Source of the DNA: Halieaceae bacterium
Lineage (GTDB): Bacteria > Pseudomonadota > Gammaproteobacteria > Pseudomonadales > Halieaceae
Length of the DNA: 64,000 bases
NCBI GenBank assembly: GCA_028280635.1
Contig: JANQLM010000121.1
Span: 1 to 64,000, forward strand
Direction: 5' to 3'
The notes beneath the pieces were generated by a model. The model was not told where the DNA came from. It saw nothing but the letters and a program-made list of their open reading frames with translations, and ran no database searches. Numbering within the stretch: the stretch's first letter is position 1; each line of letters starts with the position of its first letter. The translations under genes were made by a program, and so were the position numbers. Shown piece by piece: positions 1,142 to 11,881 of the stretch.

Positions 1142-1218
1142 TGGTGCCCCCGGCAGGACTCAAACCTGCGACCCTCCGCTTAGGAGGCGGATGCTCTATT
1201 CAACTGAGCTACGGGGGC
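1142..1218 (-). tRNA. tRNA-Arg (anticodon CCT)
   Basis: The reverse complement folds as a full cloverleaf of 77 nt. The acceptor GCCCCCG pairs with CGGGGGC, the D arm is GCTC/GAGC, the anticodon stem is TCCGC/GCGGA around loop CTCCTAA, and the T arm is GCAGG/CCTGC with TTTGAGT loop. A genomically encoded CCA end follows the discriminator A. The anticodon CCT reads AGG arginine codons. It lies between an integrase remnant and the BNR gene, so its 3' side faces the AT-rich accessory DNA, as expected for an att site. Confidence 0.97.
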
Positions 1219-1270
1219 GTTGATGCGCGGGGAGTATAACAAGCGACCCGTGAACGAGACAGCTTGCAGC

Positions 1271-2500
1271 TTACTCCGCAGGTGGGCCCAGCCGCCAGAA
1301 TGAGAAACCCATGCGATCGGCGCGCGGGTCCTGCAGCGGGGTGACTACGGCGATATCTCCAGCGGCAAGTCTCGCTACCGCGGCATACTCGCCGGCCGTG
1401 TCGCGCTGCCATGTCCCTTCTGTTTCTGCCCAGGACTCAAAGGGCAGGGCGGCAGATAGCAGCACTCGAGGTTCTCCCGACTCCATGCGAATCTGCGCCA
1501 CGCGGACACTCATGCCATCGGCTGCGGAGAACCAGGTGGCTGCCAGTTCACCGCTGCCGGTGGCGACCAGGTAGGGGAAGAAAGCGATGTCGGATTCGGT
1601 GGCGACTTGCCAAGTTTTCCAGTTGGCGCCGCGGTCATCGGATTTCCCCAGGTGGATGCTGTTGCCTTCACTCCACAGGTAGTACAGAGCACCGCTTTGG
1701 TCCCAGGCGACTGGCTCCACCCAGCGCGGCAGGCCGCCAGTGCCAAAAGGCTGCCACTGTCGGTTGCCTGGGGGAGTGTGGTTACTCCATGTACTGCCGC
1801 CGTCGATGCTGACAGCGATAAACTCGGCCTCACCGTCGAAGCGATTGCCCGAGGCAAAGATCGGCGTCACTCGCACGGCCAGTTCACCTTTGGGTCCGAG
1901 TGCCATGTGGCTGGAGCCACCCGATGTGTACACCTGGGGCATGGTCTGCCAGCTTGCCCCGGAATCCTTGCTGAGCACGTGATGGACGCCCCGGTCATCG
2001 TTCCAGATTACATGGGCGGTGCCATCGGGTGCGACTTCCACCCAGGGCCGGTCAGCCAGTTCCCGGTCCGTTAGCAGCGTCCAGGTCCAGGTCTCGCCGT
2101 CGTTGCGACTGACGCCGATGGAGATATGGGTGCCCTTGCTGGTGCTGCGGTTGAATCCCATGGTGGCAAAGTAGATCGTGCCATCCGGCGCCAGCGCCAG
2201 GTCTACATCGGAGTTGCCGATGGCGCCATCGGCCGGTGAGCCGACATCGACTTGGGACCAGGTCTCGCCACGATCTCTGCTGCGCCACAGGCTGGGCGCC
2301 CGCGCCGGTTCGTGCGGGTAGCGCGGGAAGCCGGTCACCAGTAGATCCCCACTACCCAGTTCCAGCACCATGGGCTCGCGGTTCTGGAAATCCTCGAAGT
2401 GCACCACGCTTTCCAGCGCGAGAGCCTCGTCTTCAGCCGGAGCCGCTGTGGGGAGCATTACCACGATTAGAGCGAGCGCTATAGGCAGGACGGGCCGCAT
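1271..2500 (-). CDS. Secreted BNR/Asp-box (sialidase-like) beta-propeller protein
   Basis: The 409-residue protein begins with a Sec signal peptide (PVLPIALALIVVMLPTAAPAED) and then has repeated Asp-box motifs typical of sialidase/BNR propellers: SRDRGETWS, SRNDGETWTW, SKDSGASWQ, SIDGGSTWS and SDDRGANWK. This predicts a six-bladed propeller outside the cytoplasm. The sequence does not prove sialidase activity, because the arginine triad cannot be assigned by eye, so a binding or scaffold role is equally possible. It is the last gene of a minus-strand operon, 5 bp after the stop of the preceding MBL-fold gene, and so is probably co-expressed with the envelope proteins upstream. Confidence 0.8.
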   Translation of the reverse strand: MRPVLPIALALIVVMLPTAAPAEDEALALESVVHFEDFQNREPMVLELGSGDLLVTGFPRYPHEPARAPSLWRSRDRGETWSQVDVGSPADGAIGNSDVDLALAPDGTIYFATMGFNRSTSKGTHISIGVSRNDGETWTWTLLTDRELADRPWVEVAPDGTAHVIWNDDRGVHHVLSKDSGASWQTMPQVYTSGGSSHMALGPKGELAVRVTPIFASGNRFDGEAEFIAVSIDGGSTWSNHTPPGNRQWQPFGTGGLPRWVEPVAWDQSGALYYLWSEGNSIHLGKSDDRGANWKTWQVATESDIAFFPYLVATGSGELAATWFSAADGMSVRVAQIRMESGEPRVLLSAALPFESWAETEGTWQRDTAGEYAAVARLAAGDIAVVTPLQDPRADRMGFSFWRLGPPAE

Positions 2501-2505
2501 GCTCG

Positions 2506-3660
2506 TTATAACTCGGCGCTGTTGTTGCCGCCGGCTTTCAGGCAGGCTGCCATGTTCTCGTAAGACTGATTTTTCGGCATATCTTTATAATACGCATGTC
2601 CCTTCGGATAGCACTCGTCATTGCCCGACTTGCGTATCGTTTTGATTTGCAGCGGAGGATTTGACTGGTACTCACATTGTTTCCCGAACGTCAGCTTCTC
2701 GGTCCCATGGCTGATATCCAGACTGGTGCCAGCGAATGTGAACTTCAGGGGCTTATCACCCGTAGGTGGGCCGAGTGTGCACACGCCTCGGCCGGCGTAT
2801 CGTCTTTCAACCGTTCTGTCACCACCGTTTTTGCCGCTGGAGGGAAACACCGCGTAAGCCGGCTTGAGCATCGCGATCAGGGCGTCACTGCTGGCGACAT
2901 TTCTTCCGTAGCTCGGGGCAAGCATAACGCTGACGGTTTTATCCTCGTCTCTGGTGAAGTGAGCATCGAATGCTTCGATAAGTGCCTTTTCCTCCTGGAT
3001 CGCATGCAAATCTTCACTGTCCTGGTCGCGGCCAATCAAGTCAGGCGTCAATAGCGCGCGTTGTACCTTGCTTTCTCCGCTTGCGATCACCATGGCGGTG
3101 ATCTTCTGGCGAAAGCGGATGTCCTCGGTGTGAAACAGCCTGACCTGGTCGCGCCCGAACCGGTATGTCAGGCCTTGGGGTAGCTGCACCTCGCAGAGCT
3201 CAATATCGTGGATTTTGCCGCTGACGCCAAAATCGATAAAGGTGGTGTTGGATTCGCCGCCGCATGGGCGAACCACGCGATGGACCCTGTGGGTGTGTAA
3301 CAGGCGTGCGGACAGCCCTGCATGACCCTTGGAAGGAGTCGAGATAACGAGAAGGTCGATCTCGTCGCCGCGTAACTCATCCTTCATGCTCTTGAAAAGC
3401 TCGTTGTCATCGATACCGGTGTCGAAGATCATGGTTGACCCGTCTCCGAATCTCGTCAGGGTGGCAACACCGGCCCCGGCATCGAATACAAGCAGTTCTG
3501 TGTCTTTCATGCACTTGGATTGGCACTTCGACTCTACGTAGCACGCGTCTGGGCACTGAGGTGGAGTGGGTTTGGCTCCGGCATCGCCAGCCGATACGCC
3601 TGCGCTCAATGCGACCAGAATTGCTGTAACAGTGGCTATCTTGCTTGCGCGCTCAATCAT
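2506..3660 (-). CDS. Secreted metallo-beta-lactamase-fold protein with degenerate metal site
   Basis: The 384-residue protein has a signal peptide (cleavage near residue 24) and then a Cys-rich segment (C36, C40, C46, C50). Its core resembles ComEC/Rec2-type MBL domains: ELLVFDAGAGVATLTRF then DGSTMIFDTG (about 55-82). Where the metal-binding HxHxDH box should be, it reads ISTPSKGHAGL (about 106-116), keeping only the last histidine. It is therefore probably a non-catalytic periplasmic or secreted MBL homologue. A Cys/Tyr-rich C-terminus (DECYPKGHAYYKDMP) adds likely disulfides. It sits 17 bp after the M15 peptidase gene and 5 bp before the BNR gene in the same operon. The specific role is unknown. 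Confidence 0.65.
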   Translation of the reverse strand: MIERASKIATVTAILVALSAGVSAGDAGAKPTPPQCPDACYVESKCQSKCMKDTELLVFDAGAGVATLTRFGDGSTMIFDTGIDDNELFKSMKDELRGDEIDLLVISTPSKGHAGLSARLLHTHRVHRVVRPCGGESNTTFIDFGVSGKIHDIELCEVQLPQGLTYRFGRDQVRLFHTEDIRFRQKITAMVIASGESKVQRALLTPDLIGRDQDSEDLHAIQEEKALIEAFDAHFTRDEDKTVSVMLAPSYGRNVASSDALIAMLKPAYAVFPSSGKNGGDRTVERRYAGRGVCTLGPPTGDKPLKFTFAGTSLDISHGTEKLTFGKQCEYQSNPPLQIKTIRKSGNDECYPKGHAYYKDMPKNQSYENMAACLKAGGNNSAEL

Positions 3661-3677
3661 TTGGCTTACCCCCCTTT

Positions 3678-4364
3678 CTATGCCAGATCGCTCCAGATAC
3701 AGCGGAGCTTGCGCATGAACGCGTCTGGCTTTTCGCGATTAAGCCCATCATCAATGTGTACCGGGTCTGGTGCCGGTGTGAAATCGCCTCCCCAGCGATA
3801 GTTTTCTCTCACCGCTTCAAGAAACCCGCGCACTGGAGACGGCAGCGTGTCGAAGTCGGCCAGGCGATGGGAGTTGTACCAGGTGTCGGCGTGAATCAGG
3901 TTCATGTCGATGGCGTGACCGACGTGATGATTTGAAAACTTGCCCGGTGTAACGATGGCGTTCTCAACGCGTTCTCCCGGTCTTCGCAGCGAGCTGGTGA
4001 CGAAGATCTCCAGGTCGTGCTCCTCGGCCACGCTCCCCAACTCAACCAGGACCGACCGGAAGTCCTCATGAATTCGGATCGGCTTCTCAGAACGGTAGGC
4101 TGTTCCCGTGTAGGTCAGGATACCTGTTTTTGCATCCGCTTTCGGTTCATCCAACTGCGTGCTGCGGTGGTTGGCAGTAGGCTCAACATAGTCCGCGGAC
4201 ACAAAGCCGATGCGACCGTCAGCGTCCTGCACCCGCAGCCAGGTGTCCTCGCCCAGCACCGTGAGCTCGGTGCCGCTGGGTAACACCGCCAGGGTATCTC
4301 CGTCGTGCGGTGATTCGCGCAGGCGTAGGCCGCGTCTGGCGTTGGTACGTACCCTGTCAGGCAT
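3678..4364 (-). CDS. SH3b plus M15-family peptidoglycan peptidase
   Basis: The 228-residue protein starts with a bacterial SH3 domain (about residues 3-62: TNARRGLRLRESPHDGDTLAVLPSGTELTVLG, then GFVSADYVEP). An M15 peptidase domain follows (about 80-228). The zinc motif SxHxxGxAxD is present as SNHHVGHAID (144-153), and the second metal histidine is in DPVHID (about 200-205), so the active site looks intact. The family cleaves peptide stems of peptidoglycan (D-Ala-D-Ala or L-Ala-D-Glu). No signal peptide is visible, which resembles phage endolysins, so how it reaches the wall is unclear. It follows the membrane-protein gene by 38 bp and precedes the MBL-like gene by 17 bp. Confidence 0.8.
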   Translation of the reverse strand: MPDRVRTNARRGLRLRESPHDGDTLAVLPSGTELTVLGEDTWLRVQDADGRIGFVSADYVEPTANHRSTQLDEPKADAKTGILTYTGTAYRSEKPIRIHEDFRSVLVELGSVAEEHDLEIFVTSSLRRPGERVENAIVTPGKFSNHHVGHAIDMNLIHADTWYNSHRLADFDTLPSPVRGFLEAVRENYRWGGDFTPAPDPVHIDDGLNREKPDAFMRKLRCIWSDLA

Positions 4365-4402
4365 GTCCCGGAACCTCCAGCACTCTCCAGCAGATCATGA
4401 AA

Positions 4403-6094
4403 TCAACCCACCGGCTCTTCGTCGGGTGTAATCTTCAATAGCGAAACTGCCTCGTCCACGGGTGCCCGGAAGAAGCCATCCGGCCTTGTCACCGTCTCAC
4501 CGCCTTCGATGGCGACAGTGATGTCCTGTCTGCCAAGCGCAACCACTGCCGCTTTGCTGCCTGCGGGACTGCTACCAATCTCCTGGCTGAGCTCGACGGT
4601 GTCGCCGACCCGCACTAGCTTGCGCCCCAGCACCGCTGACGCTCTGCCCAGGCCGATCGCCTCCTGAACCCCTGTCTCGATTTTGTCCTGAAGATTGCTA
4701 AGCCTTGGCCCACGGGGGCCCTGACTGATCAGGTGATCCGTGAGATTTCTCGCCGCCATCAGGATTACCTCCGGCGTGAGGCCGGCCACGAAGGCGAGCA
4801 CGACGGCACTGGCAGTTTCCTCGGGCCGCGCGAAGGAATACGCCAGAATGGCGACGGGGACTGCGGTCAGCACCTGCAGCATCTGGAAGACAACAAGGTC
4901 GGGCAATTGTGACCACGGGATTGGGTCCCTCGGTTTCAGCCCGCCCAGCACATTGTCTTCGAATTCGTTTTTGTAGCTCTCATCGTTGCGGTACTGAAAC
5001 TCAGGTAGCTTCCTGTACATCGTGACCAACGCACCGAGTACCGCAAGCGCGATGAAAAATACTGGAACGGTCACCCCGCCAACAATGGGTGCCGCAGGCA
5101 CGATGTTCTCGTCAATCTGTTTCGCTGCTTTCGTACGGGTTTCGTTCACCTTGGCGCGCTGCAAGCTGTCTGCCGCCAGTGATAGCTCGCGCTGGGTGCG
5201 TTTTAACGCCTCTTCGGCCCGATGCAGTGCTTCTCTGGCACTGGCGATGTCTGCAAGGTCCCCCTGCCTGGAGCGGCCGGTACCTTGCCTGAGCTCTGCG
5301 ATGGTCAGTGCAGTTGACGCTTGCTCGAAAGCGTTCTCTTGCACAGATTCACGGTGTCGAAGCTCGTCAATCTGACTACGCAGGCGTGAAGCAGACCCCG
5401 GGCAGGCCGGGTCCAGGCTGTCCGGCCTGCAGAACCGCTTTTTCGTTTTGCGTTTTTCCGCATGGTGATCATGACAGGTGCCGTCGACATGGCAACTGAG
5501 CACCAGCCCGCCGATGTTGAGGACCCACTGTGGCGGGATATCACCACAGTATCTGGCACCTTCGGGCATGGCCGCCGCGGGCTCACGGTCACGCTCTTCC
5601 TCCCTAAACGAGCCTGGCCGTGCGAAGTCGCAGCCCGGGAGAACGCCGATCAGGTTGTGTTGATACTCTTGGCCTGACAGGACGACGGTAGGGCCTGCCC
5701 TGAAGTGTGGCCGATAGTCACCCACCATCGCGTAGACGGCAGCGACGGTGAGCAAGAGCGCATAGCCATAGCCCAGGCGTAGTACGGCCGCGCCGTCTGC
5801 GGGCGACTTAACCTCTCGCGTGACGAGGGTGATTGCGATGAGAAGCGGGATGCTCCACAAGAGCACCCAGTATGAATCACGCCACCACGAGAAGAGAATC
5901 AGCACGCTCGCGGCTGCAGCGAAGAACAGGTAGGTAGATGCGAACTTGTTCAGATGCTTCAGTGCACTGCACAGCGAGCATTGAAGCGTGTGCCGGATCG
6001 ACCGAAATGTAGCCTTGGATTGCGTCTTTTTCTGCCCGGCTCCATCAGCATCATCGGGGGTCTTGGCGTTGTTGCTGTCTGCGTCAGCGGCCAC
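4403..6094 (-). CDS. Multi-pass membrane protein with periplasmic coiled coil
   Basis: I do not recognise a family for this 563-residue protein. It has a polar N-terminus, three hydrophobic helices (about 54-125), and a soluble stretch of about 200 residues containing Cys/His clusters (for example SCHVDGTCHDHH) and a long coiled coil (about 235-325). A further helix (PIVGGVTVPVFFIALAVLGAL) and two more (about 400-450) follow. It ends in a beta-rich tail with KLVRVGDTVELSQEIGSSPAG. The layout suggests an inner-membrane protein with a central extracytoplasmic stalk. Its start is 2 bp from the stop of the upstream lipoprotein gene, so the two are translationally linked. A structural or bridging role in an envelope complex is inference. 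Confidence 0.7.
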   Translation of the reverse strand: MAADADSNNAKTPDDADGAGQKKTQSKATFRSIRHTLQCSLCSALKHLNKFASTYLFFAAAASVLILFSWWRDSYWVLLWSIPLLIAITLVTREVKSPADGAAVLRLGYGYALLLTVAAVYAMVGDYRPHFRAGPTVVLSGQEYQHNLIGVLPGCDFARPGSFREEERDREPAAAMPEGARYCGDIPPQWVLNIGGLVLSCHVDGTCHDHHAEKRKTKKRFCRPDSLDPACPGSASRLRSQIDELRHRESVQENAFEQASTALTIAELRQGTGRSRQGDLADIASAREALHRAEEALKRTQRELSLAADSLQRAKVNETRTKAAKQIDENIVPAAPIVGGVTVPVFFIALAVLGALVTMYRKLPEFQYRNDESYKNEFEDNVLGGLKPRDPIPWSQLPDLVVFQMLQVLTAVPVAILAYSFARPEETASAVVLAFVAGLTPEVILMAARNLTDHLISQGPRGPRLSNLQDKIETGVQEAIGLGRASAVLGRKLVRVGDTVELSQEIGSSPAGSKAAVVALGRQDITVAIEGGETVTRPDGFFRAPVDEAVSLLKITPDEEPVG

Positions 6095-6096
6095 AA

Positions 6097-7614
6097 CTAG
6101 TTCCCCTCTGGCTCGTCGAGCAAGGGACGGTGGCCGCGCAGCACCGCCTCGAACCGTCGCGCCTGCGAGGCCACCAGTTTCTTCAGCTTCTCCTCGTCAT
6201 CTTCATCTATTTCCGCGACCCGGGTCGAAAGCTCGCGGAGCGAACGCTGTAAGTTCAGCAGGGTGACCTTGCGCTGCTCATTGAAGGCGTCCACCTCGGC
6301 TCTGTCCGCAACAAAGCTCTCCGGGGTTGTTTCGACGGCGGTATTGCTCTGGCCGCCCTGGGAGGAGGCCAGCGCGCCAGTGGGTAGGCCGCCGGCGGCG
6401 CCGGCAATACTGATCGCGGCGTTGGCCAGCGACCGTGAAATCTCAAGTTGTCCCTGAATCAGGGCGGATGGGTTGTTGCGCGCACTGTGAACACGATAGT
6501 TCAAGGGATCGTCGCGCACGATGACGACGCCCGCGTCTCCCTCCGCATAGAAGTAAGTTTCGCTGCTTTCTTCGTTCCAGTGCAGTTCATTGTCCGGGTT
6601 GGTGACAACGCGCCAGATCGGGTCGCCAGGGTCCTGCAAGCGGTCGATCAGCTCAATGAAGCGGGAAGATCCCTGCACCAGGCTGGCGAGGGCGGTGCGT
6701 GATGTCGCGGATGAAGGAAGATCATTTCGCAGAGTCTCGAGCTCATTGGCGATCACCAGGCTCGAACCTGCCAGCGTAGACGGTGTATAGGGGGAGCGCG
6801 TTGCGTTGACAGGCACGGACCTGCCTGACTCCGAGAGCTGCGCCGAGAGTGAGACAATACTCTGGGCGATACTCTCTGCGAGATCTTGCAGTAGCTGTTG
6901 GCGGCCAGTGTTACCTGTTGCCCTCGATTCCAGGTAGGCCACATTCAGGTTGTACTCCAGTCCCGTCCAGTCAACGGAAAATGGTACGTCGGTGCTGCCA
7001 AGTGTCTGGAACGAACTGATGGCATCCACGGTTCTGTCCAGCGCCCGGGTCTCGGCATTGCGCAAGTTGTTCCTGATCCTGAGCTGGATACACTCGTCAC
7101 CACGGTCGGCGGAAGCGTTGCCGCTACCCAGGGCCAGCCGCCACCAGCTTTTTTGCTCCGGCTGGTTGCAGGCGTCGGGCCCCGTCAGATTCTGAATGAC
7201 GGCATACTCATCCTGGTACCTGCTGACATAGGCGCGCAGCGAACTAACAGCGCCGTTGACGATGTCGTCATACTGCGCCTGATTGGTGGCCAGCTGTTCA
7301 GTGTAGGCCGCCAGCCGGCGGTGCAATTTCTCCACCTGTCGATCATCACGCCCAACAATCCGCCAGGCGCCGCTATAGATATCGACGGCCTGAGTCGCCA
7401 GCCGGGTGCGGACGCCCTGATCGCGCTTTGCCTCAGCCTGAAGTGTCTGGAGATTTGCGATGAGCTGCTGGGCCTTGCGGGGTGTCATAGGAAGCTCAAC
7501 GCGGGGATCTTCGTCATAGATATCCACGGTGATCTGCAGCTGGGTGCTCGCACATCCGGTTAGCCACAGGCTGGCGATACATAACAGCGACGTCGCAATC
7601 CGCCGGCCCATCAT
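6097..7614 (-). CDS. Large lipoprotein, function unknown
   Basis: The 505-residue protein begins with a lipoprotein signal peptide and lipobox (SLWLTGC, Cys about residue 21). Residue +2 is Ala, so outer-membrane sorting is expected. The mature part is mostly helical with coiled-coil tendency (about 45-130 and the last 60 residues, rich in E/K/R). A beta-rich middle follows (around 330-370: VVTNPDNELHWNEESSETYFYAEGDAGVVIVRDDP). A Ser/Gly/Gln-rich linker precedes the terminal helices. No domain family is recognised. The start overlaps the stop of the upstream lipoprotein gene (7611-7614, ATGA), so it is the second gene of the operon. It may pair with the upstream lipoprotein as outer-membrane subunits. 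Confidence 0.7.
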   Translation of the reverse strand: MMGRRIATSLLCIASLWLTGCASTQLQITVDIYDEDPRVELPMTPRKAQQLIANLQTLQAEAKRDQGVRTRLATQAVDIYSGAWRIVGRDDRQVEKLHRRLAAYTEQLATNQAQYDDIVNGAVSSLRAYVSRYQDEYAVIQNLTGPDACNQPEQKSWWRLALGSGNASADRGDECIQLRIRNNLRNAETRALDRTVDAISSFQTLGSTDVPFSVDWTGLEYNLNVAYLESRATGNTGRQQLLQDLAESIAQSIVSLSAQLSESGRSVPVNATRSPYTPSTLAGSSLVIANELETLRNDLPSSATSRTALASLVQGSSRFIELIDRLQDPGDPIWRVVTNPDNELHWNEESSETYFYAEGDAGVVIVRDDPLNYRVHSARNNPSALIQGQLEISRSLANAAISIAGAAGGLPTGALASSQGGQSNTAVETTPESFVADRAEVDAFNEQRKVTLLNLQRSLRELSTRVAEIDEDDEEKLKKLVASQARRFEAVLRGHRPLLDEPEGN

Positions 7615-8393
7615 CGGGCACTCTCGACAAGAAACAACAGTGCCTCGATCTCGGTCAGCAGGTCAGACTTGTTCGCAAGCTCGCCGGCCTCCAGCGCGTG
7701 AAGCGCTTCATTGATCTGTGACACGATCAGCGTGTTGCTCTGCCTGTCCACTTCCATACCGGCTACAGCCTCGTCCTTGTCACTGATTCGCTGTTGGCGA
7801 ATCACGTCAGCAAGGCGGAGGACAGTTGCACTGGTTCTTTCGCTTTCCGAAAACGCCTTTATCTTGTCGATAACCTCATTCGGGTTGGACCCCAACACGA
7901 ACACCCGTTTTTGCCCCGCCCGTCTCAGCGCCAGGTTGCGGGAGGGATCGTACTCCACCTCGACGGCGCCTTCTGGCAGGGGTATGCCGTCCCCGGCCAT
8001 GGCGCGTACGCGCCGCTGGGCGTTCAGAAGAGCGAGAATCCGCTCTTCGGAGGTATCCGGGTTTTGCGCCGCATCCAGGTAGCTTTTGGTTGTTGCGATG
8101 ATGGCGTTATCAATATGACCCCGGATATCCTCTTCAGCCTTAATCGCCGCGCCCGCGTCTGCGCGATCCGTGGAGCCGTAGAGGCGATCAACCGTGTGGG
8201 CAGGAAACCAGCCTGAATCGTAGTTGGATATCCCGTAGTAGGTATCAGCCTCGACGGTAATTCGGTAGAAGTTGGTATTGTCGCCGCTCGGTACGGCCAG
8301 GTAGGACGTTTCGACAACGTTCATTGGGCCGCTGGAAGCACAGCCGGTTAGCAGGCAAACCAAGAGAACAAACAGTGCTCGCCATTGATGCAT
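7611..8393 (-). CDS. Lipoprotein, function unknown (first gene of envelope operon)
   Basis: The preferred start is the internal ATG at 8393 (MHQWRALFVLL), because it begins a clean lipoprotein signal (LLVCLLTGC, Cys at about residue 18); the ORF track start at 8435 adds 14 unlikely residues. The mature protein of about 240 residues has an N-terminal beta-rich part (YRITVEADTYYGISNYDSGWFP) and then long helices, with a short strand-like element (KRVFVLGSNPNEVIDKI). No family is recognised. It overlaps the next lipoprotein gene by 4 bp and opens the six-gene minus-strand operon, whose promoter should lie within 8394-8580. No strong Shine-Dalgarno is seen before either start. Confidence 0.7.
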   Translation of the reverse strand: MHQWRALFVLLVCLLTGCASSGPMNVVETSYLAVPSGDNTNFYRITVEADTYYGISNYDSGWFPAHTVDRLYGSTDRADAGAAIKAEEDIRGHIDNAIIATTKSYLDAAQNPDTSEERILALLNAQRRVRAMAGDGIPLPEGAVEVEYDPSRNLALRRAGQKRVFVLGSNPNEVIDKIKAFSESERTSATVLRLADVIRQQRISDKDEAVAGMEVDRQSNTLIVSQINEALHALEAGELANKSDLLTEIEALLFLVESAR

Positions 8394-8583
8394 GACTGAG
8401 CGTACTTGCTGCGAATCGATCCATGTACAGCGCACAGCTCCACCTCCATGTCGCGCCCTGTGCTGCCGCAGCCGTGTTAGATTCTATGCAAAAAAGCTGC
8501 GTTCAAAGGACAAGTGGGCCAGCTTTTTATAAAAGGCAATGTAACGCTGGCGTGGAGAAGTCTAGTAGAGACCGCGGGAAAAG

Positions 8584-8650
8584 CAAAAAAACCCTGGCTT
8601 TCCCCGACAGGTTTCTGCCGTTCGTCCCTGCTTGGCAGCGGGGAGCCAGG
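8584..8650 (-). terminator. Rho-independent terminator of pckA
   Basis: On the minus strand, 26 bp after the pckA stop, CCTGGCT..CCCCG (8593-8606, with a two-base bulge) pairs with CGGGG-AGCCAGG (8639-8650). The loop contains a smaller CTGCC/GGCAG stem. The structure is followed by seven T (A run 8585-8591 on the plus strand). This also separates pckA from the lipoprotein operon downstream. Confidence 0.8.
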
Positions 8651-8675
8651 CGGCTGTCCTATCGGTGAGGCATGA

Positions 8676-10283
8676 CTAGAGTTGGGGGCCGGATGCCACC
8701 AGGGCCGCGCCCCCGGCAATGTCCGTGTACTGGTCGAAGTTGGCGATAAAGCGCTCCGCCAGGTCGCGGGCTTTTTCCTCCCAGACCGCGGGGTCCTCGT
8801 AGGTATCGCGAGGGTCGAGGATGTCACCGTCTACGCCGGGCAGCGCGGTGGGTACTGTGAGGTTGAAGATGGGAAGCTGCGTGGTCGGGGCGTCCTCGAT
8901 GGAGCCATCGAGAATCACGTCGATAATACCCCGCGTATCCTTGATGGAGATGCGTTTGCCGCTGCCGTTCCAACCGGTGTTTACCAGGTAGGCTTCGGCA
9001 CCCACGGATTCCATCTTCGCCACCAGTTCCTCGGCGTACTTCACCGGGTGCAGAGTCAGGAAGGCCTTGCCGAAGCAGGCGGAGAAGGTGGGTACGGGTT
9101 CCGTGATACCGCGCTCGGTTCCCGCCAGCTTGGCGGTGAAACCTGACAGGAAGTGGTACTTGGTCTGGTGGTGGCTGAGCTTGGATACCGGCGGCAGCAC
9201 GCCGAAGGCGTCGGCAGTGAGGAAAATCACTTTCTTCGCATGACCACCCCGGGATACCGGTTTCACGATGTTGTCGATATGATGGATTGGGTAGGAGACG
9301 CGTCCGTTCTCGGTAATGGAGTGGTCGAAGTAATCGACCTTGCCCTGGTCATCTACGACCACGTTTTCCAACAGGGCATCACGCTTGATGGCACGGTAGA
9401 TGTCGGGCTCGCTTTCCGGGTCGAGATCTATAGTCTTGGCGTAGCAGCCACCCTCGAAGTTGAAGATGCCCTCATCGTCCCAGCCGTGTTCGTCGTCGCC
9501 GATCAGTCGACGTTTGGGGTCGGCCGAAAGCGTGGTCTTGCCTGTGCCCGACAGCCCGAAGAAGATCGCGACGTCATCGTCTTCGCCCATGTTGGCACTG
9601 CAGTGCATTGAGGGCATGTGGTCCAGCGGCAGGTAGTAATTCATCATGGCGAACATGCCTTTCTTCATCTCGCCGCCGTACCAGGTGCCGCCAATCACCT
9701 GCATCTTTTCGGTCATGTTGAAAACCGTGAACACCTCCGAATTCATGCCGTGCTCTTGCCATTCCGGGTTTGAGGTCTTGGAGCCGTTGAGCACCACGAA
9801 GTCCGGCTCACCGTAGCTCGCCAGTTCTTCGGCGGTGGGGCGGATAAACATATTGGTGACAAAGTGGGCCTGCCAGGCCACCTCAACGACAAAGCGTACC
9901 TTCATACGCACCTTGGGGTTGGCGCCGCAGAAGGTGTCGACAACGAACAGGCGCTTGTTCGACAGTTCGTTGGTCACCAGGGCCTTGAGCTTGTCCCAGA
10001 CTTCCGGCGTGATCGGCTTGTTGTCGTTGGGTGAGTTGGTCGAAGTCCACCACAGGTTTTCCTTGCTGACCTCGTCATGGACAATGAACTTGTCCTTGGG
10101 GGAGCGCCCGGTAAATATCCCGGTGCGCACCGCGACGGCGCCTGTATCGGTGACAACGCCTTTCTCATAGCCTTCAAGATCGTCCCGGGTTTCCTCTTCG
10201 AATAACTGTTCGTAGGAGGGGTTGTGAACGATTTCCTGAACACCAGTGATGCCATAGCGGGACAGATCGACCGTGGACGACAT
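8676..10283 (-). CDS. pckA: Phosphoenolpyruvate carboxykinase (ATP)
   Basis: The 535-residue cytosolic enzyme converts oxaloacetate plus ATP to phosphoenolpyruvate, the first step of gluconeogenesis. The ATP-type P-loop GLSGTGKT (about 243-250), the metal/nucleotide segment [13 protein letters not shown] and the early [10 protein letters not shown] substrate segment are all present, and length is normal. The start at 10283 ([11 protein letters not shown]) is chosen over the longer ORF because an AAGGAGA Shine-Dalgarno lies just before it. It is a single-gene unit: a non-coding stretch of about 340 bp upstream probably holds the promoter, and a strong intrinsic terminator follows the stop. Confidence 0.97.
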
Positions 10284-10625
10284 AAACCATCTCCTTGCGC
10301 CAACGCGCTGAGAATCAACAGAGTCTGAGTGTGGGTACAACAGGGTAGTCGCGGTCTATGACACAACAGCACGGGGTGTAGGACATTGGCCTGCATCAAG
10401 AGATGGCCGGTTTCCGGAAAAGACTATGAAGCCAGTCTTTATGACGCCGGGTGTCAGCCTTCGACCTGGCTGCCGCCCGGATGCTGCCAGGTGCCCTGTG
10501 AACCCTGGGTCCGGTAGCCCATCAGGTCGCGCCGCTGTTGCGGTCGGGCCACGAAGACGTCACCGTCGCTGGCGCCGGCAGCGAAACAGGCCAATGGCAG
10601 AGTGCCCCCCGCGGCACTTGCCGGT
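10284..10625. other. 342-bp gap between pckA and NTF2-like gene
   Basis: No confident gene is seen. The part next to pckA should carry its promoter. The part next to the NTF2-like stop is GC-rich and open on the minus strand in another frame, ending in a protein-like tail (RRDLMGYRTQGSQGTWQHPGG) before a stop near 10456. This could be a degraded C-terminus of an old gene, but nothing is recognised. Confidence 0.3.
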
Positions 10626-11050: not shown

Positions 11051-11881
11051 TCAGTCTTGCGTCATGAAATCGTTGAAGGCGGCCTCAAAGTCCGGGTGCC
11101 AGCGCGACAGGGCGGGGCGGTTCTCGATCAGGTCGCCCATGGCCCATGCCATCCGCTTGTTGTCGGTCTCGCGGTCTACGTCGTTGTCGGGGCACAGTAC
11201 ATAGAAATCGCCGCGGTTGAGACTCTCCACCAGGAATTCGACCACCTGTTGCGGCGTCCAGGCGCCGGGAGGTTTTTCCGCCAGGAAGCTGCGAATCATG
11301 CCAGTGTAGGTAAAGCCCGGCACCAGTAGATGGGCGGTGACCCGGCAGCCCTTGGTATTGCGCAGCTGGTGGGCCAGGGCCTCAGTGACAGCTCTTACAC
11401 CCGCCTTGCTGACGTTGTAGGCGGGGTTGCCGGGCGGCGAGGTGATACCCTGCTTGGAGCCGGTGTTGATGATGGCGCCGGGAGTCCCCTGGTTGACCAT
11501 GGTGGGGGTGAAGGCATGCACGCCGTTGATCACGCCCCAAAGGTTGACGCCGAGCGTGGTTTGCCAGGCGTCATAGTGCTCCCAACAGCTATTGGGACGT
11601 CCGGTACCGGCATTGTTCATCAGCACATCGATGCGTCCATAGGCGTCCAGCACGTCATCGCGGATGGCTTCCAGATCGGCGAGCTGCGAGACGTCGGCGC
11701 GGATGGCCAGCACATCGCCCAGGGCGTCCTTCGCTTCGCTGAGCTTGGCCTTGTCGATGTCGGCGATACACACGCGCATGCCCAGCTTCAGGAAATGTTG
11801 GGCAGCGGCCAGTCCAATGCCGTCGGCGCCGCCGGTGATAACGGCCGTATTGCCCTCGGCCAGGGCGGGATGTGATGTCAT
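11051..11881 (-). CDS. Short-chain dehydrogenase/reductase (SDR)
   Basis: The 276-residue classical SDR has cofactor motif TGGADGIG (about 16-23), an acidic residue after the second strand (ADID) suggesting NAD(H) preference, NNAG (about 90), the catalytic Ser in GSKQG, and YNVSKAG carrying the Tyr/Lys pair. The C-terminal extension (RPALSRWHPDFEAAFNDF) is common in SDRs of marine gammaproteobacteria. The substrate is unknown. It is followed 8 bp later by the NTF2-like gene and preceded by the YHS lipoprotein gene about 58 bp away on the same strand. Confidence 0.88.
   Translation of the reverse strand: MTSHPALAEGNTAVITGGADGIGLAAAQHFLKLGMRVCIADIDKAKLSEAKDALGDVLAIRADVSQLADLEAIRDDVLDAYGRIDVLMNNAGTGRPNSCWEHYDAWQTTLGVNLWGVINGVHAFTPTMVNQGTPGAIINTGSKQGITSPPGNPAYNVSKAGVRAVTEALAHQLRNTKGCRVTAHLLVPGFTYTGMIRSFLAEKPPGAWTPQQVVEFLVESLNRGDFYVLCPDNDVDRETDNKRMAWAMGDLIENRPALSRWHPDFEAAFNDFMTQD

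Follow-up and report, generated by a model that had tools for sequence, protein, structure and literature searches.

Four adjacent genes in a 64,000-nucleotide stretch of a Halieaceae bacterium genome (contig JANQLM010000121.1; the whole stretch is called the window here) form a co-inherited, rare and sporadically inherited cassette. The genes, A to D, encode two lipoproteins, a polytopic inner-membrane protein and a peptidase of the LAS/M15 type. The cassette is tentatively read as a wall-opening or controlled-lysis module, built around a peptidase that resembles phage endolysins and that would need help from its partners to reach the cell wall.

Recurrence of the cassette and gain of the block

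Relatives of C came to light in an alignment-based scan; pattern scans that used C as a single protein, in collections of genomes and of viruses, gave nothing. Full-length relatives of C were found in Bowmanella denitrificans (L059), Pseudoteredinibacter isoporae (L060) and Alteromonas species (L061-L064), and two further copies (L087 and L088) came from profile searching in 249 genomes of the Bowmanella family. As L064 hardly differs from L061, the two count as one, which leaves eight loci: the window, L059-L063, L087 and L088. The order A-B-C is repeated in all seven other genomes (Alteromonadaceae and Pseudoteredinibacter), with proteins 21-44% identical to those of the window, and D follows in six of the seven, in one of them with a frameshift. 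In each of the eight loci the stop codon of A and the start codon of B lie in a shared stretch of exactly 4 bp, and the spacing ranges from -44 to +2 bp between B and C and from +2 to +38 bp between C and D. Pairwise identities of the four proteins covary, with r of 0.80-0.93, a correlation to which shared descent alone contributes. The flanks differ between loci and are mostly housekeeping genes. Among 369 genomes drawn from the class, A occurs in one, the window's own.

In the window, A to D are followed on the same strand by E and F (Table 1). The sequence-only reading had described six tightly packed minus-strand genes as one operon and one system. Its coordinates and spacing are reproduced, with gaps of 2, 38, 17 and 5 bp after the overlap of A and B, and the unity of the set stands for A to D, which are co-inherited. 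It does not extend to E or F, neither of which is found beside any other copy of the cassette (L059-L063, L087, L088). In the sister genome G325, window positions 1142-2425 align by blastn with L053 1-1284 (81%) and positions 8676-10459 with L053 1424-3207 (88%). Only 139 bp (L053 1285-1423) stand there in place of the 6.25 kb that carry A to E, and the order is PEPCK–F–tRNA-Arg. All four sequenced genus members have F next to this tRNA-Arg, the sister copies being 70-79% identical, and A to E adjoin F in none of the other three. Because the sister genomes keep F at the tRNA-Arg without A to E, F counts among the genus's resident genes and stands outside the system. The block with A to E was therefore gained in this lineage, multiple losses being a less simple alternative. 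The six-gene operon was rejected on these grounds, since F is resident by the sister-genome comparison and E is local. Independent scattering of homologues, which the same reading had named as the outcome that would undo it, is thus true of E and F and untrue of A to D.

Absence of the block in the sister genome, together with copies elsewhere at differing sites, fits horizontal movement. The 6.25-kb block contains no recombinase gene, and neither terminal repeats, target-site duplications, promoters nor terminators were found at it above chance. The G+C content of its genes is 55-61%, compared with 62% for the window.

Products of the cassette and their neighbours

D matches Pfam SH3_3 (8.7e-9) and Peptidase_M15_4 (4.5e-8, over its cut-off), in agreement with the SH3-M15 assignment made earlier from the letters. 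Its LAS site, H146-x6-D153 and D200-x2-H203, is invariant in the six intact sequences aligned; H146, D153 and H203 are the predicted Zn ligands and D200 the predicted catalytic residue, so that D has the pattern of Zn ligands and catalytic residue that marks LAS/M15 members. The spacing is the same as in ChiX of Serratia, where His68, Asp75 and His123 are the Zn ligands and Asp120 is catalytic (His68-x6-Asp75, Asp120-x2-His123; PMC5778951). ChiX, an L-Ala-D-Glu endopeptidase, lacks a signal peptide and relies on a partner in the inner membrane, ChiW, to get into the periplasm (PMC5778951). Neither in the window nor in any orthologue does D carry a signal peptide, and it opens directly with the SH3 domain. 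Judged from its sequence, it would be cytoplasmic in the organism unless something lets it out. The earlier view that the parts span both membranes and the wall therefore calls for caution over D, whose access to the wall needs explaining.

The catalytic half of D matches signal-less proteins of about 145 amino acids on two viral contigs, L098 and L099 (39% by tblastn; 4.9e-30 and 37% identity by hhalign). On both contigs these relatives adjoin a small membrane protein and tail genes, and, like the catalytic domain of D itself, they match PHROG endolysin families. A profile search of the PDB with D retrieved the phage endolysins LysB4 (0.01) and Ply500 (0.04). Because of the viral signal-less relatives, the PHROG families and the PDB endolysins, the catalytic domain of D is, by homology, of phage-endolysin ancestry or type. 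Plasmid matches to D covered the SH3 domain only and were set aside.

The lipoproteins A and B have the lipoboxes LLTGC-A and LTGC-A, as had been reported, and neither has Asp at position +2. Under the Lol sorting rules a lipoprotein without Asp at +2 goes to the outer membrane, and both are predicted to be sorted there because they lack it. A has seven orthologues at 36-44% identity. B is mostly helical, with a conserved C-terminal domain (W...G-D-x-x-V-x-V-R-D), and its AlphaFold model, with a predicted local distance difference test score (pLDDT) of 55, is confident only locally and shows a long helical hairpin at residues 45-142. The quality of the models of A (pLDDT 51) and B was too low for a fold to be inferred, and what Foldseek returned for A was noise. 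Directly upstream of A in L061, on the same strand, lies a gene for a 356-residue coiled-coil membrane protein (L061:5764-6834) with a weak match to the ZorA coiled coil (9.9e-5).

More distant lipoprotein pairs also occur. A divergent pair, A'-B', was reached through a marginal match to A and stands without C or D in L089, with close copies in L104 and L105. A still more distant pair, A''-B'', has an 8-bp overlap and lies directly downstream of a signal-less alpha/beta-hydrolase with transmembrane (TM) segments and an HGIGEQ motif (L106:8036-13455). By hhalign, A is linked to A' (1e-8), B to B'' (1.4e-8) and B' to B'' (2.9e-10); the links of B to B' alone (5e-4) and of A' to A'' (2e-4) are weaker, and there is no direct link between A and A''. 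L106 is possibly a second member of the same class. Genes near the A'-B' pair (L089:3-11864) encode a SIR2-nSTAND protein with a ThsA-like N-terminus, a Kelch protein and a jacalin/PI-PLC-X protein.

Hydropathy gives C about six hydrophobic segments and places residues ~126-330, which include the coiled coil, between TM3 and TM4, in line with the multi-pass protein and extracytoplasmic coiled coil proposed before. This extracytoplasmic domain contains Cys residues, and a small C-terminal beta domain is predicted to be cytoplasmic. C ranges from 536 to 629 amino acids among the copies. Its residues 336-460 recur in shorter proteins, each found singly, in Gammaproteobacteria, Alphaproteobacteria and one Desulfobacterota genome. 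In the last, the gene for the C-type protein precedes genes for an S8 subtilase without a signal, for a lipoprotein and for a small helical protein (L068:3053-7568), a layout that parallels C-D. At another locus, a C-type protein is encoded 2 kb away, and on the other strand, from a gene that resembles a DUF2235 phospholipase by eye only (L073:5863-7107).

A, B and C match no family in Pfam, NCBIfam, PHROGs or PADLOC, and the A-D set matches no named system there, which upholds for A to D the earlier remark that no named system was known with such a set. Against PADLOC 2.0.0, A to F gave sub-threshold matches only, none of them significant. Viral scans and plasmid and phage searches returned no relatives of A, B or C, and PDB profile searches with these proteins gave nothing credible. 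Weak matches to window proteins in relatives (L007 and L009-L012, E of 1e-2 to 7e-5) involved coiled coils only and were dropped. No description of the A-D set was found in the literature.

E is a local add-on inside the inserted block, and it is left out of the mechanism because it is found in no other copy of the cassette; no full-length relative of E exists among the 369 class genomes. The earlier call of a pseudo-metallo-beta-lactamase (pseudo-MBL) fits a weak ComEC-type likeness (TIGR00361, E=0.011) and 29% identity over 83 residues to a Listeria MBL protein. The metal motif reads STPSKGH in place of THPHADH, with three of the four motif residues lost, and E lacks the HxHxDH pattern. The C-terminal tail of E, NDECYPKGHAYYKDMPKNQSYENMAACLKAGG, may resemble a small Cys-containing tail that occurs on secreted nucleases. 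For F, the assignment as a BNR propeller is confirmed by Pfam (BNR_2). In the sister genome G324, F adjoins an SDR gene that corresponds to window positions 11051-11881 (L097:7440-9522), with no PEPCK gene between; because PEPCK is missing from that interval, the place where F and PEPCK meet is one that varies within the genus.

A tRNA marked by an integrase had been proposed as a sign of mobility. The tRNA-Arg is present, and no integrase was found in bases 1-1141 by open reading frames (ORFs) or profile searches. The cassette lies on the 5' side of the tRNA with the resident F between them, and movement by way of the tRNA or an integrase is unsupported. At the contig end, on the 3' side of the tRNA, positions 180-854 instead encode a PLD-like protein of 224 amino acids that matches the PADLOC candidate PDC-S05 (8.6e-18). 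The sister genomes L096 and L097 have other genes at this place, and because of this the 3' side of the tRNA-Arg may be the real variable site.

Table 1. Features of the window discussed in the text
Feature	Coordinates	Strand	Basis
A, lipoprotein, 260 aa	7611..8393	-	ORF and lipobox LLTGC
B, lipoprotein, 505 aa	6097..7614	-	ORF and lipobox LTGC-A
C, inner-membrane protein, 563 aa, ~6 TM	4403..6094	-	Hydropathy; full-length orthologues
D, SH3_3 and LAS/M15 metallopeptidase, 228 aa	3678..4364	-	Pfam
E, exported ComEC-type MBL-like protein, degenerate metal site	2506..3660	-	Weak profile match
F, exported BNR propeller	1271..2500	-	Pfam BNR_2
tRNA-Arg (CCT)	1142..1218	-	ARAGORN; adjoins F in every genus member examined
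6.25-kb block with A-E	2426..8675	.	blastn colinearity with sister genome G325

Proposed mechanism and rival explanations

The reading put forward here, the likeliest of those considered though a tentative one, is that A-B-C-D opens the wall or lyses the cell in a controlled manner. The two outer-membrane lipoproteins would form an envelope platform with C in the inner membrane. D would be a domesticated phage-type endolysin, a LAS endopeptidase of the L-Ala-D-Glu type, made in the cytoplasm and held away from its substrate because it has no export signal. On triggering, C, or a loss of inner-membrane integrity, would let D pass to the peptidoglycan. D would then cut cross-links and A and B would help at the outer-membrane side, such that the wall opens locally or the cell undergoes controlled lysis or release. 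This proposal is favoured by the synteny in eight loci with unrelated flanks, the fixed overlap of A and B, the parallel divergence of the four proteins, the ChiX-like site of D, its viral endolysin relatives and the sporadic occurrence of the cassette.

Several observations weigh against it. D is missing from L060 (Pseudoteredinibacter), both at the locus and elsewhere in the genome, and is frameshifted in L063 (Alteromonas KUL49), so A-B-C may be able to work without it. That D has been lost in two of the eight copies makes it less likely to be the system's only purpose, and the rival explanations account for this loss about as well. The distant A-B pairs occur without C and D. C has no match to a holin family in Pfam or PHROGs; as for spanins, A gave only a lipobox-level match to a PHROG Rz-like family (E=0.026) and B gave none. 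The cassette is accompanied by neither a regulator nor a cargo gene.

Loss or breakage of D while A to C persist, and A-B pairs that stand alone, would also suit an interbacterial toxin, in which D is a signal-less effector of a type VI secretion system (T6SS) or similar, A, B and perhaps C are immunity proteins of the periplasm or membrane, and the copies without D are orphan immunity genes. There is precedent, in that M15 "phage endolysin" domains serve as polymorphic T6SS toxins in Neisseria (PMC10210955), and genes for peptidoglycan effectors adjoin genes for exported immunity proteins (PMC12135965). Such a toxin is nevertheless unlikely here, given that D carries no delivery domain and that three large proteins would be rare for immunity. 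No vgrG, hcp, PAAR or adaptor gene was seen within 4-10 kb of the copies by ORF reading, no systematic or profile search having been made. Moreover, relatives of A and B also stand beside an alpha/beta-hydrolase, in one case, an arrangement easier to reconcile with a shared platform than with inhibitors specific to one enzyme. Alternatively, A and B could join the coiled coil of C across the periplasm in a lasting structure, for transport, attachment or phage exclusion, with D opening the wall locally for its assembly. The layout of the parts, the extracytoplasmic coiled coil and the presence of A-B-C without D in L060 are consistent with this, as is the probable translational coupling of A and B, read from their 4-bp overlap. 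It too is improbable: D has no signal, whereas the dedicated wall-openers of known machines are, as far as is known, exported, and the models of A and B are of low confidence and have no fold match.

Abortive infection, in which A to C would detect phage entry or damage to the envelope and D would then lyse the infected cell, is quite unlikely. In its favour are the sporadic occurrence and horizontal acquisition of the block, the PDC-S05 PLD protein at 180-854 and the ThsA-like SIR2-nSTAND protein near A'-B' in L089, but A to F are only sub-threshold in PADLOC and the surroundings of most copies are housekeeping genes, not defence islands. An ordinary six-gene chromosomal operon for wall upkeep, with no special system, would account for the tight spacing and for a block without mobility genes. 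It is very hard to credit, given that A to E are missing at the same site in the sister species, which already contradicts it for A to D, that A occurs in one of 369 class genomes, and that D has no export signal.

The preferred reading, a wall-opening or controlled-lysis module, can be extended to a modular class, an extension that is possible but rather doubtful. The A/B pair, often with a C-type protein, would be a platform that licenses or delivers interchangeable signal-less hydrolases by a non-holin route to the envelope: a LAS enzyme in A-D, an alpha/beta-hydrolase in L106 and perhaps, in L068, a subtilase. Both of the latter are single cases, which suggest such a platform with exchangeable hydrolases and do not prove it. 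If the preferred reading is right, a phage endolysin has been put to new use in bacteria together with membrane partners that are related neither to holins nor to spanins, which raises the testable question of whether a polytopic protein such as C can carry a folded enzyme without a signal to the wall, or let it through. The superfamilies of A and B, absent from the family libraries searched, offer a handle on broader systems of envelope conflict or release.

Relation to known systems

Zorya and other membrane-based defence systems share with the cassette an envelope-located, multi-gene and sporadic character, but A to F have no significant PADLOC match and the cassette lacks a MotB-type or nuclease partner. 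T6SS effector-immunity pairs that act on peptidoglycan, such as the M15-type pairs of Neisseria and the WHIX effectors, likewise place a signal-less peptidoglycan enzyme beside genes for exported proteins. They differ in that no delivery module is seen here, D comes last behind three large envelope genes and the order A-B-C-D is fixed. Phage M15 endolysins (L098/L099, PHROG 6523, 1768 and 465, LysB4 and Ply500) have a catalytic domain homologous to that of D and no signal, whereas D has an SH3_3 domain and belongs to a chromosomal cassette with A to C, with no phage genes around it.

Further parallels are the type 10 secretion system (T10SS) ChiWXYZ of Serratia marcescens and the lysis cassette of Yersinia entomophaga. 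Like A-D, these lie outside any prophage and encode a signal-less LAS endopeptidase along with a lipoprotein component and a protein of the inner membrane. D is the signal-less peptidoglycan hydrolase that a T10SS requires. The T10SS holin is small, with one to three TM segments, whereas C is large, polytopic and coiled-coil, and in the loci read the cassette is not accompanied by any small membrane ORF. Spanins are optional in a T10SS; A and B, both large lipoproteins, have no relation to i- and o-spanins, and D differs further by its N-terminal SH3_3 domain. The mode of action proposed for A-D is the one by which T10SS and holin-endolysin-spanin cassettes work (PMC10847048, PMC13284979). The cassette is nevertheless not classed as a T10SS, since it lacks a holin, matches no spanin and has neither cargo nor regulator linked to it.

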